Positions 56,715 to 64,000 of a stretch of DNA of 64,000 nt are shown here, one piece after another. The DNA lies in assembly GCF_026240095.1 (NCBI RefSeq), contig NZ_JAPIVG010000002.1, positions 1-64,000 of the forward strand, in the 5' to 3' direction. Positions within the stretch are counted from its first letter, which is position 1. Each line of letters starts with the position of its first letter. A program made the position numbers and the translations under genes. This stretch comes from Pedobacter sandarakinus. Lineage in GTDB: Bacteria > Bacteroidota > Bacteroidia > Sphingobacteriales > Sphingobacteriaceae. A model generated the notes under the pieces. The model had not been told where the DNA came from. It saw nothing but the letters and a program-made list of their open reading frames with translations, and made no database searches.

Positions 56715-58604
56715 ATGATACTTATGCGTGCTTTAAACCTCCGAACTACTCATACTTATTTCCTTAGGCTATGCCTATTTCAGGCCTTGCTTACATTGCT
56801 ATCAATTACTGTTCAAGCACAAGTTCCAGTTTTTATTAATGATGGAACGCCCCACCAGATCTTAACATTCAACCAAATCGATGTTTTGGAAGATAATGGC
56901 GGAAATCTTACATTGAGCCAGGTACTGACTAAAGGCCTGCAATCAAAATTTAAGCCCAATCAAAATCGTATCCCAAAAAATGAGCATGAGCATTCCGCAT
57001 ATTGGTATCGCTTTCGAATTGGTCATAATTCCGCATCTGCTAACCGGTGGATTTTAGAGTTTTTTGATCAATCCATTAACGATCTCGAACTTTACGTTCC
57101 TGATAAGGCAGGCAATTACCAGGTGAATCACTTTGGAACAGACTATCCATTTTCTCGCAGGATTTATGGCCATAAAAACTTTACTTACGACCTGGAGAAT
57201 AAAACCAATCAGGTTGCTACATATTACATCCGCATAAAATCTCCCAATCCGGTAAGTGCAATTATTGTGCTGCGAGATCTTCGATGGTTTTTAGGATACG
57301 CCGTTGGAGAATATTTTTTCTTCGGATTGTTTTACGGGATGATTATCGTTTTTTGCCTTTATAATCTCTTGATGTATTTCGCGATTAATCGAAAGCAATA
57401 CCTGTATTACGTTATTTATAATCTAGGTATCGGTTTGTATGAGATGTGTAACGATGGTATTGCTTTCCAATACCTTTGGCCATCTTATCCGCAGATGAAT
57501 ACCTATGGTTTCGGTATTGCCCTGTTCATAAGCAGCATTTTCGGGATGCTTTTCACCATTAACTTTCTTTATCTTAAATCGAAGGCCCCAATGTTTTACC
57601 GGGTTTTAGTTGGAATGATTGTTTTAAGGAGCTTATTTTTTATTGCCTGTTTATTTGATACGACGCTTTACAATTTTAAATTAATAGAATTCCTTCCATT
57701 AATGCTTGTTTTTGCAGCCGCGTTGCAAAGTTATCTGAAAAGATACAAACCTGCCTTATTCCTGCTATTTGGCTATGGCGCATTAATATGCGGGTTTACC
57801 ATCAAGATTATGCTTCTACTGAAATGGATTCCTTATGGAACATTGGCTTATTATAGCCTAAGCATTTGTTTTGTAGTGGAGATGGTTCTAATTTCATTTG
57901 CCATTGGAACAAGTATTCGAACACTTAGAAAAAAGAAAAGCCAGGCACAGGAAAGAATTATCGAACAATTGAGCATCAATGAGAAGTTAACACGGGCACT
58001 CAATGAAAAATTGCAAGTGCTTGTGGCAGATCGTACCTATGAGCTGCAACATAAAGCCGAGATTATCGAGCAGCAAAATATCGAAATTTCCGTTATGAAT
58101 AGCATGCTTAAAAAAGATAATATCGAACTCAACTTAAGCATTGAAAAGGTTAATAAGGCGAGAATAATCTCTAAAAGTTTAGATTTTGAAGAATTCAATA
58201 AAATATATCCTGGTAAAGAAAACTGCTTGCAATACATTGCCGATTTGAAATGGAAAGAGGGCTATAGTTGCCGCAAATGTCAGAATGCACATTTCTTATC
58301 CGGACAAACACCGTCAAGTAAAAGATGTACCAAGTGTGGCTACGATGAATCTGCAATTGCGTATACGCTTTTTCAGAATAGCAGAATCCCAATTAATAAA
58401 GCCCTATACATGTTCTTTCTTGTATATAATTCTAAGGGTACGATTTCGTCCTATAAATTATCAGAGATCCTCTCTATCCGCCAGAGTACCTGCTGGAATT
58501 ACAATTCCAAGATGCAAAAACTGTTGGTACAACGCAAAGAGGAGATTAAACAGGCCGGTGATGATGGCTGGATGAAATTACTGCTTGCGCCCATAGAAAA
58601 CTAG
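56715..58604 (+). CDS. 7TM-DISM receptor fused to an IS1595-type zinc-ribbon/HTH module
   Basis: 629 residues. Signal peptide to about 35; 7TMR-DISMED2 sensor (about 45-165, with HSAYWYRFRIGHN); seven TM helices (about 190-395); coiled coil (about 400-475, ADRTYELQHKAEIIEQQN). Residues about 490-600 match the N-terminal part of IS1595-family transposases: EFNKIYPGKENCLQYIADLK, then YSCRKC (C519, C522) and CTKC (C538, C541), then YTLFQNSRIPINKALYMFFL, GTISSYKLSEIL and STCWNYNSKM. The DDE catalytic domain is absent. It is probably a receptor that binds DNA through a former transposase domain. Single gene with its own upstream region. Confidence 0.85.
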   Translation: MILMRALNLRTTHTYFLRLCLFQALLTLLSITVQAQVPVFINDGTPHQILTFNQIDVLEDNGGNLTLSQVLTKGLQSKFKPNQNRIPKNEHEHSAYWYRFRIGHNSASANRWILEFFDQSINDLELYVPDKAGNYQVNHFGTDYPFSRRIYGHKNFTYDLENKTNQVATYYIRIKSPNPVSAIIVLRDLRWFLGYAVGEYFFFGLFYGMIIVFCLYNLLMYFAINRKQYLYYVIYNLGIGLYEMCNDGIAFQYLWPSYPQMNTYGFGIALFISSIFGMLFTINFLYLKSKAPMFYRVLVGMIVLRSLFFIACLFDTTLYNFKLIEFLPLMLVFAAALQSYLKRYKPALFLLFGYGALICGFTIKIMLLLKWIPYGTLAYYSLSICFVVEMVLISFAIGTSIRTLRKKKSQAQERIIEQLSINEKLTRALNEKLQVLVADRTYELQHKAEIIEQQNIEISVMNSMLKKDNIELNLSIEKVNKARIISKSLDFEEFNKIYPGKENCLQYIADLKWKEGYSCRKCQNAHFLSGQTPSSKRCTKCGYDESAIAYTLFQNSRIPINKALYMFFLVYNSKGTISSYKLSEILSIRQSTCWNYNSKMQKLLVQRKEEIKQAGDDGWMKLLLAPIEN

Positions 58605-58787: not shown

Positions 58788-59216
58788 ATGTGGATTTTAT
58801 GGGCCGTGCTCGCAGCAATATCTGCTGCACTTGTAATTGTTTTAACCAAAGCTGGTTTAAAGGATGTGGATCCAAGTCTGGCTTTTGCCATTCAGGCAGT
58901 ATTAATTTTATTGATTACCTGGAGCGTAGTTGTTTATCAGGGTAATTTTAGTGCTTGGAAAGGGATTGAAAAAAATGCCTGGATCTTTTTATTGTCGGCA
59001 GGGGTATTCACTTCATTGTCTACGCTATTTTCTTATAAAGCATTATCAATGGGCCCTGCTTCTTATGTGGCCACTATCGAAAGAATGTCTTTGGTAATTG
59101 CAATCGTTTTATCGGTAATTTTTCTTAAAGAAAAACTCACCTGGCAAATTGTGGTTGGAGGTACGGTAATGGTAGCGGGGGCAGTGCTCATTGCCGTTTC
59201 AGATACAGGCGAATAA
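58788..59216 (+). CDS. EamA-family half-size transporter
   Basis: 142 residues with four to five TM helices, one EamA repeat instead of the usual two: MWILWAVLAAISAALVIVLT, DPSLAFAIQAVLILLITW, and the signature FSYKALSMGPASYVATIERM with FLKEKLTWQIVVGG. Such single-repeat members work as dimers like EmrE. Exports small metabolites or drugs. Single gene. Confidence 0.88.
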   Translation: MWILWAVLAAISAALVIVLTKAGLKDVDPSLAFAIQAVLILLITWSVVVYQGNFSAWKGIEKNAWIFLLSAGVFTSLSTLFSYKALSMGPASYVATIERMSLVIAIVLSVIFLKEKLTWQIVVGGTVMVAGAVLIAVSDTGE

Positions 59217-62561: not shown

Positions 62562-64000
62562 ATGAGAAAAATCTATCAAAAATTTTTTTTGGGCGTCTGT
62601 TGTATGGTCCTGATTACCACTTTGGGTTTCGCCCAAAATCGAGTAAGCGGAGTGGTGGTTGAAGAAACTGGTTTGCCGGTTGCCGGTGCAACTGTGAAGA
62701 TCAAGGGGACCAATGCTGCTCAAATAACTGATAATAAAGGAACATTTAGAATGGACGTTCCTGTAAATGGGGTAATCATTATAACTTATGTTGGCTACCT
62801 CAATCAAGAGATCAATGTAGGAACTAAGCAAGAATTGAAGATTACGCTTCAGCCAGATCGCACATCTTTAGAGGATGTTGTGGTGGTTGGGTATGGCACA
62901 GTAAAGAAGAGCGATGTAACAGGTTCACTAGTTTCTCTGAAGGCTTCAGAGCTAACACCGGGCGCAAATGTTAATGTACAGCAATTAATGCAGGGGCGAG
63001 CTGCGGGTGTTCAGATTTCGCAACGAAGCGGCGAACCTGGTAGTGCCATGAGTGTAAAAATCAGGGGCGTTAGTTCCATTTCTGCAGGCAATGATCCATT
63101 GTATGTAGTAGATGGGATGCCGGTAAATGATGGCGCTCCTGTAACTGGAAATGGTGCGCAGTTTGTTGCAAATCCAAATCCAAGAAATCCGCTTAATACT
63201 TTAAACCCATCAGATATAGAATCAATAGAGATTTTAAAAGATGCTTCTGCTACGGCGATTTACGGATCACGTGGTGCGAATGGCGTGGTTTTAATCACAA
63301 CAAAAAGGGGCGCAGCCGGACAAATGAAGGTGGAATACAACGCTTATTTTGGCTTTCAGGAAGTTGCGAACACAGCCCAGGTATTGAATGCTGTTGACTA
63401 TAAAAATGTGTTAAACGGAATAATCGATGCCGGTGGAGGTTCTGCCGCAGAACGTGTTGCCGAGGATATTGGAGCAGGTACCGACTGGCAGTCGCTTTTA
63501 CTTAGAAGGGCAGGTACCCAAAGTCACGACCTTTCAATCTCAGGCGGCGGGGGGAACAATAAATTCTATGTTTCACTGGGTTATTTTGATCAAAATGGAG
63601 TGGTATTAAGTTCCGGCTTAAAGCGCTACACCGCTAGGGTAAATTTCGAAAATTCGGTAGCCAATAAATATGCCGTAGGCATTAACCTGACCAGCTCTTA
63701 TATCAATGATAAAATTGCTTCTGTAGGTACAGGTATCAACGAATCTGGTAGTGCATTGTATTCTGCTATCTATTACGATCCAACATCTCCGGTTACCAAT
63801 CCAAATGGAAGTTATTTCAGATCTCCTTTCATGACTATCGACAATCCTGTGGCATTGATTTATGGGCAAACTGCCAATAGCGACTCGTACAGGACATTTG
63901 GAAACGCCTTTGCAGAATATTATATTACTCACGACATCTCGGTAAAGGCAAGAATAGGCGGAGATATCAACACCAGTCAGAAAAATGTTTTTATAGATCC
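62562..64000 (+). CDS. SusC/RagA-type TonB-dependent receptor (5' part)
   Basis: The frame runs from the ATG at 62562 off the right edge, 479 codons shown. Signal peptide FLGVCCMVLITTLGFA, then a carboxypeptidase-D-like domain (VSGVVVEETGLPVAGATVKI), the linker SLEDVVVVGYGTVKKSDVTG (TonB box region) and the plug (MQGRAAGVQISQRSGEPG, IRGVSSISAGNDPLYVVDG, then ATAIYGSRGANGVVLITT). Start of the barrel is included. Imports glycans or peptides with a SusD partner, expected just downstream. No ECF sigma/anti-sigma pair lies upstream. Confidence 0.95.
   Translation, partial: MRKIYQKFFLGVCCMVLITTLGFAQNRVSGVVVEETGLPVAGATVKIKGTNAAQITDNKGTFRMDVPVNGVIIITYVGYLNQEINVGTKQELKITLQPDRTSLEDVVVVGYGTVKKSDVTGSLVSLKASELTPGANVNVQQLMQGRAAGVQISQRSGEPGSAMSVKIRGVSSISAGNDPLYVVDGMPVNDGAPVTGNGAQFVANPNPRNPLNTLNPSDIESIEILKDASATAIYGSRGANGVVLITTKRGAAGQMKVEYNAYFGFQEVANTAQVLNAVDYKNVLNGIIDAGGGSAAERVAEDIGAGTDWQSLLLRRAGTQSHDLSISGGGGNNKFYVSLGYFDQNGVVLSSGLKRYTARVNFENSVANKYAVGINLTSSYINDKIASVGTGINESGSALYSAIYYDPTSPVTNPNGSYFRSPFMTIDNPVALIYGQTANSDSYRTFGNAFAEYYITHDISVKARIGGDINTSQKNVFID

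Follow-up and report, generated by a model that had tools for sequence, protein, structure and literature searches.

Regulators of the SusR-like group in Bacteroides are described as having motifs made of direct repeats that lie 67 or 77 bp apart (PMC3878776). That paper explains the spacing by a dimer whose monomers sit on one face of the DNA, and reports for the SusR DNA-binding domain no significant similarity to the DNA-binding domains of other known transcription factors. Receptors of the 7TMR-DISM type, for their part, are named in a figure legend of a second paper among the architectures that occur with the ChiS DNA-binding domain (PMC8092284).

Here we describe a gene of Pedobacter sandarakinus that joins a 7TM-DISM receptor to a zinc ribbon-helix-turn-helix (HTH) of the kind found in IS1595 transposases. 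The gene lies at positions 56715 to 58604 of the window, by which we mean the whole stretch of 64,000 nucleotides that was analysed (contig NZ_JAPIVG010000002.1, positions 1 to 64,000). From its domain architecture, the neighbourhoods of its relatives and a predicted operator, we hold with good confidence that its product would be a membrane-anchored one-component regulator that activates PUL genes. What would be new here is a PUL regulator anchored in the membrane whose DNA-binding domain derives from a transposase; a word-based literature search found no paper that joins 7TMR-DISM with a transposase zinc ribbon or with PUL control.

The window gene and its product

The open reading frame begins with ATG and encodes 629 amino acids, within which the following features were placed.

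56715..58604, + strand: whole gene, 7TM-DISM receptor with IS1595-type zinc ribbon-HTH (open reading frame, Pfam, NCBIfam)
56874..57272, + strand: 7TMR-DISMED2 ectodomain, residues 54-186 (Pfam, E 5e-32)
57309..57908, + strand: 7TMR-DISM_7TM transmembrane domain, residues 199-398 (Pfam PF07695, E 1.5e-38)
57915..58172, + strand: linker, residues 401-486, modelled as a long helix and presumed to form a coiled coil (predicted model)
58218..58343, + strand: four-Cys zinc ribbon PF12760, residues 502-543, with Cys 519, 522, 538 and 541
58392..58532, + strand: helix-turn-helix, residues 560-606 (NF033547 match and modelled helices)

A first-pass annotation had read this protein as a 7TM-DISM sensor that runs on through a coiled coil into a four-Cys zinc ribbon and HTH matching the N-terminal region of IS1595 transposases, with the catalytic domain missing, and had proposed a profile search against those transposases. 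That reading agrees with what we found. Both parts of the sensor, DISMED2 and the 7TM core, are matched in Pfam, and the ectodomain resembles the fold of the RetS periplasmic domain (Foldseek 3jyb_A, E 8.5e-7, target TM 0.82). In the AlphaFold2 model the sensor continues towards the zinc ribbon as one helix at residues 376-486, with low confidence at 468-488, and we presume that its linker part forms a coiled coil. The model further contains hairpin strands at 527-529 and 536-538 and helices at 560-572, 579-586, 590-606 and 608-623, with the segment SIRQSTCW (587-594) opening the third HTH helix. Modelled alone, the C-terminal part gave a pLDDT of 83.7.

The profile search placed the module with IS1595 transposases. 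The window protein matches PF12760 (Zn_ribbon_IS1595) over residues 502-543 with an E-value of 8.6e-5, and its score ranges from 22.9 to 27.7 bits depending on the length given (22.9 for the whole protein, 25.2 for the last 172 residues and 25.5 for the last 154), against a family cut-off of 25.4 bits. As the score is at the cut-off, matches across the family matter: among the 29 C-terminal sequences of our alignment A5, a set of 26 fusion or short-TM proteins and three of transposase type, 27 match PF12760 at E <= 0.01, with every other family limited to one of the 29 at most. The alternative that the C-terminal part belongs to another zinc-ribbon family was rejected on these 29 sequences, none of the families fitting better than PF12760. 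All 30 aligned fusions keep the four cysteines (C519, C522, C538 and C541). Just beyond the ribbon, residues 555-613 match positions 1-60 of the 215 in the NCBIfam model transpos_IS1595 (NF033547) with an E-value of 2.9e-4, at a score far below the model's cut-off because the match is partial. The catalytic DDE domain PF12762 is absent from the Pfam scan of the window protein, as are histidine kinase, receiver and AraC domains, and the chain ends 23 residues past the third HTH helix.

Foldseek returned no PDB match for the C-terminal model at E <= 0.001, and the best VIA-align scores (Z 5.7 and 5.6) were both to homeodomains, whose three-helix arrangement is a common one. Sequence searches of the PDB were likewise without a match, both for the whole window protein (E <= 1) and for the A5 profile (E <= 0.1).

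Gene neighbourhood and predicted operator

Many relatives of the fusion are linked to susCD/glycoside hydrolase operons. Neighbourhoods were tallied at 67 loci, dereplicated at 98%; SusC and SusD were each called with a profile made from 17 sequences that neighbour fusions. SusC is the next gene on the same strand at 36 of the 67 loci, the second or third gene on the same strand at eight and within five genes at another five, one of which is the window, where the SusC is unrelated; at the remaining 18 no SusC was found near the fusion. Nine of these 18 loci are on records of about 19 kb, and SusC is therefore truly missing nearby there. Under a stricter dereplication at 70% (n = 34), SusC is next in 19 cases, second or third in six, within five genes in one and absent in eight. 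Because the loci in this tally and in the operator analysis below are related by descent, and some records represent one species twice, none of these counts should be read as a count of independent events.

The calls themselves were checked against public families, by which 17 of 18 SusC candidates (NCBIfam) and 17 of 17 SusD candidates (Pfam) were confirmed. The genome of P. sandarakinus contains 33 SusC genes above the cut-off in 4.09 Mb; if we assume some 3,500 genes in it, a fusion would stand beside a SusC gene by chance in about one per cent of cases. Twenty saccharolytic-looking neighbour genes were also scanned, of which 17 match glycoside-hydrolase-type families (GH2, 3, 5, 16, 30 and 43, PF10091 and Glyco_hydro_cc), the other three being an alginate lyase, a PKD protein and an esterase-like protein. 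A polysaccharide lyase 14 gene precedes the fusion at L149, which has no SusC, and the gene 3' of the fusion at L068 encodes a fumarase-type lyase and is not a PUL gene. The operons adjacent to the fusions are mostly PULs for several glycans, among which beta-glucans are perhaps prominent, to judge from the enzyme families. Fusions of this kind probably switch on the neighbouring genes for the import and digestion of complex sugars.

The intergenic regions between fusion and SusC share a sequence, aAGCGTATYA, which is found in many of them and usually occurs twice on the same strand. After a 72% filter, which kept 23 of 40 fusion-SusC regions, AAGCGTAT was present in 16 of the 23, compared with 0.33 expected from dinucleotide shuffles, and a pair of repeats 74-94 bp apart was present in 15 (shuffle mean 0.003). 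The spacing is typically 76-78 bp in one Pedobacter group and 90-92 bp in the other Pedobacter group, in Siphonobacter, in Albibacterium and in L053, a record labelled Beijerinckiaceae that is perhaps mis-binned. The CGTAT core is invariant in both repeats of alignment A8 (10 rows) and in the first repeat of alignment A9, the latter taken without row L172:16100-16380, which is mis-placed on coding sequence. Alignment A8, which includes L145:3242-3533, also has a recurring palindrome like CTGATTATCAG between its two repeats, possibly a third binding site.

Pairs of this kind also track the fusion genes across whole genomes. A scan of the 60 genus genomes returned at least 150 pairs, those listed coming from 36 of the genomes. 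Among the 150 pairs listed, 31 are no more than 4.5 kb away from a fusion, compared with 0.25 expected for a mean genome of 5.3 Mb, and 29 of these 31 are on the strand of the fusion. Seen from the fusions, 28 of 36 in the 36 genomes listed have a pair nearby, in one case only on the opposite strand. Two operator-like pairs among those listed, at G017:C4:37142 and G029:C6:269915, are away from fusion genes and are candidate trans targets.

At 34 loci with another gene order or without an adjacent SusC, the pair was sought ahead of four genes: SusC, the first gene downstream, the fusion and the gene that precedes the fusion. It was present at 16 (L035, L038, L041, L046, L056, L058-L060, L070, L148, L152, L157, L171, L173, L174 and L176), a figure that includes four Cyclobacteriaceae records and counts some species twice, and no pair was found at the other 18.

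The window gene has no such site within 400-450 bp upstream of itself, of the preceding gene or of the next four genes. Directly downstream, at 58788-59216, is a gene for an EamA-domain protein of 142 residues, half as long as transporters of this kind usually are. The SusC/SusD pair that begins at 62562, 4 kb downstream of the fusion, and whose gene runs to C12:65612, was considered as the target and rejected: no pair of repeats accompanies it, and its SusC reaches an identity of no more than about 35% with those that adjoin fusions.

Across the P. sandarakinus genome (G000) as a whole the pair pattern shows no enrichment, with 13 hits compared with 25 for the reversed control, and it stands within 1 kb upstream of two of the 33 SusC genes. 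One of these belongs to the PUL of the paralogous fusion at G000:C1:49836-51740 (C1:51814, then SusC, SusD and GH30). The other, at G000:C12:176096, lies at a distance of 117 kb from the window gene; its sites are 209 and 130 bp before its start, and GH76 and ROK genes lie just upstream of it. Over 1009 residues its product shares 69% identity with the SusC directly beside the fusion in Pedobacter nutrimenti. We regard it as the window gene's displaced target, and the window gene probably acts in trans on this susCD operon.

A competing reading takes the window copy for an orphan in decay, without a target, its relatives still being PUL regulators. Neither an operator nor a related SusC is found beside the window gene, which speaks for it, yet the open reading frame is intact, all four cysteines and the SIRQSTCW helix are kept, and the second operator-bearing susC is still in the genome. 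We judge decay to be rather unlikely and favour action in trans.

Proposed mode of action and origin of the zinc ribbon-HTH

In the mechanism that we propose, the ectodomain would bind a glycan fragment in the periplasm, and the 7TM domain and coiled coil would pass the signal to two DNA-binding heads of the transposase type, paired as a dimer. The two repeats, separated by 7 to 9 helical turns and placed upstream of the promoter, would each be held by a single head, and binding of the heads would turn susCD transcription on. When A8 and A9 are inspected by eye, both repeats are upstream of TTG and TAnnTTT elements, which to us look like a Bacteroidetes -33/-7 promoter.

The same arrangement could be read as that of a PUL repressor or dual regulator, since paired distant sites can support repression loops. 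Pairs are also found upstream of the fusion gene itself at six of 75 loci (L035, L036, L041, L044, L148 and L171), which is compatible with autoregulation. We nonetheless favour activation and think repression improbable, because the repeats, as placed by eye, lie upstream of the -33/-7-like elements and because SusR, which has similar sites, activates its targets (PMC3878776).

A more radical alternative is that the zinc ribbon-HTH no longer binds DNA and is a protein-interaction or dimerisation module, the promoter repeats belonging to another regulator that acts on these loci. Zinc ribbons often mediate protein contacts, but three observations leave this reading with a small share of our belief. 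First, the operator tracks the recognition helix: among regions related by descent, the pair is present in 15 of 17 whose fusion carries an IRQ[SG]TCW (or MRQ) helix and in none of six with other helices. Second, pairs track the fusion genes, as the genus scan indicated. Third, the zinc ribbon-HTH appears to be conserved by selection. Its dN/dS is 0.017-0.048 in six of eight pairs of fusions, two pairs having saturated dS and the pair L032/L033 being near saturation, and in all eight pairs dN is highest in the ectodomain; by these ratios, the module of the fusions is under purifying selection. For the other recognition helices (six clades or loci), LRRNTIW, LGTNTVW and LRQGTCW among them, no operators were found, and repeated 8-mers sought in seven regions of these clades gave nothing convincing.

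A survey of the fusion, which the first-pass annotation had also suggested, found it conserved in the genus, with candidate members in five families of the class. With a genus match defined as at least 42% identity over most of the module, 50 of 55 matches fall within open frames at least 600 residues long, a set of 55 that leaves out one 38-residue fragment in G055. In the GTDB collection an open reading frame of at least 580 residues is present at 36 of 47 loci, the rest comprising two short membrane versions, one broken version and eight that are of transposase type or fragments. At the level of the class, judged by module match and open-frame length, a match within an open frame at least 600 residues long occurs in 16 of 395 genomes, which belong to five families. 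The P. sandarakinus genome has two diverged fusions, and at E <= 0.001 nothing else in it matches PF12760 or PF07695. At L070:2480-6393, in Pararcticibacter amylolyticus, two fusion genes stand in tandem. A recent and non-functional joining of receptor and insertion sequence, by chance or in assembly, to which the transposase-derived C-terminal part might point, is rejected as next to impossible, given that the fusion is present in 37 of 60 sampled genus genomes (own genome counted; six single-contig assemblies), is conserved across species, is found in its own genome as two diverged copies with no further PF12760 protein, and has very low dN/dS where this is computable.

The module also has recognisable relatives among transposases. 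It is 32-39% identical to four transposase-type sequences, with (R/K)RCTKCGYDES as the shared core, and L134 is itself a transposase, in which the module, with PF12760, is followed by the IS1595 DDE domain PF12762. In a tree of 77 out of 120 domains (85% filter within label, 125 columns), which is rooted at the midpoint only and in which many forks are unsure, a branch with support 94/91 sets apart 39 7TM-fusion rows together with one short-TM row and one solo row, and the group adjoining this clade is of transposase type (87/74). As the fusions form one clade with transposases adjoining it, a single capture of an IS1595-type DNA-binding module fits their origin. The earlier suggestion of a captured transposon module gains support from profile searches, the alignment with transposases and the tree. 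The direct link to DNA that the first-pass annotation proposed is made more plausible, indirectly, by the PULs found next to relatives and by the paired promoter element that goes with the recognition helix.

The ends of related insertion sequences were compared with the predicted operator. Twenty related elements were tried, two of them without enough flank; L072, L077 and L137 have GGGTTACC-like inverted ends, and the scores of inverted ends are barely or not above those of shuffles, except in L142, an outgroup element with clear ends. None of the ends resembles aAGCGTATYA. The transposase L134 has no clear ends and contains one CGTATYR, about chance level.

Several other proteins carry related domains. 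One genome, G256, encodes eleven IS1595-like proteins of 306-339 residues (L085, L109-L116) that closely resemble the fusion domain. Eight of them were read, and their catalytic motifs seem to have decayed (PCELG and TTGW, for instance, compared with VDE and TDGW in transposases); L110, the one scanned, matches the DDE model below its cut-off. Another family has, in five genomes of a single genus, stand-alone zinc ribbon-HTH proteins of about 154-203 residues without a catalytic domain (L119-L123), which are likely a second domestication. Two short Pedobacter versions (L057:3497-4462 and L061:3638-4462, 321 and 274 residues) lack the 7TM domain and consist of a membrane segment and a helical stretch that lead up to the zinc ribbon-HTH seen in the fusions; scanned whole, neither matches PF12760.

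Comparison with known systems

The fusion shares a zinc ribbon and HTH with IS1595-family transposases, and differs from them in having no DDE domain, in being fused to a receptor and, in its relatives, in having a conserved neighbourhood. In common with 7TMR-DISM receptors it has a DISMED2 ectodomain, a 7TM core and a helical linker to a cytoplasmic output. The other outputs of such receptors (kinases, cyclases, GGDEF, LuxR or LytTR HTH) are not known to be transposase-derived. HTCS regulators resemble the fusion in placing a membrane sensor and a DNA-binding domain on one chain and in controlling PULs, and their motifs are also direct repeats with a long spacer (PMC3878776); unlike them, the window protein lacks the histidine kinase, receiver and AraC domains in the Pfam scan.

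If our reading is true, a bacterial signalling receptor has been built by domesticating the DNA-binding domain of a transposase, and a receptor family known here by its domains alone would gain a predicted operator and regulon. Glycan sensing and eating in Bacteroidota would then involve an added class of regulator. We think it likely, with somewhat less assurance than for the role of the window gene itself, that the fusions represent a further class of PUL regulator beside the SusR-like, HTCS and ECF types, arising from one capture, present in several Bacteroidota families and placing two heads on paired repeats.

A close parallel is with the SusR-like regulators of Bacteroides. A Bacteroides control genome contains no match to PF12760 or PF07695. 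SusR-like regulators, like the fusion, are single membrane polypeptides with a periplasmic sensor and a C-terminal HTH (PMC3878776). They are also often linked to susCD, as are many relatives of the fusion, the SusC near the window copy being unrelated. The repeats lie 67 or 77 bp apart in SusR-like operators, compared with 76-78 and 90-92 bp in those predicted for the fusions (PMC3878776). Unlike SusR-like regulators, the fusion has a 7TM-DISM sensor, and its DNA-binding domain is an IS1595-type zinc ribbon-HTH. That the fusion would work like SusR is the best-supported reading by analogy, the likeness being one of architecture and repeats, and we claim no membership of the SusR family. The long-spaced direct repeats that the fusions are predicted to use, and that SusR-like regulators also have, suggest a shared mechanical constraint.
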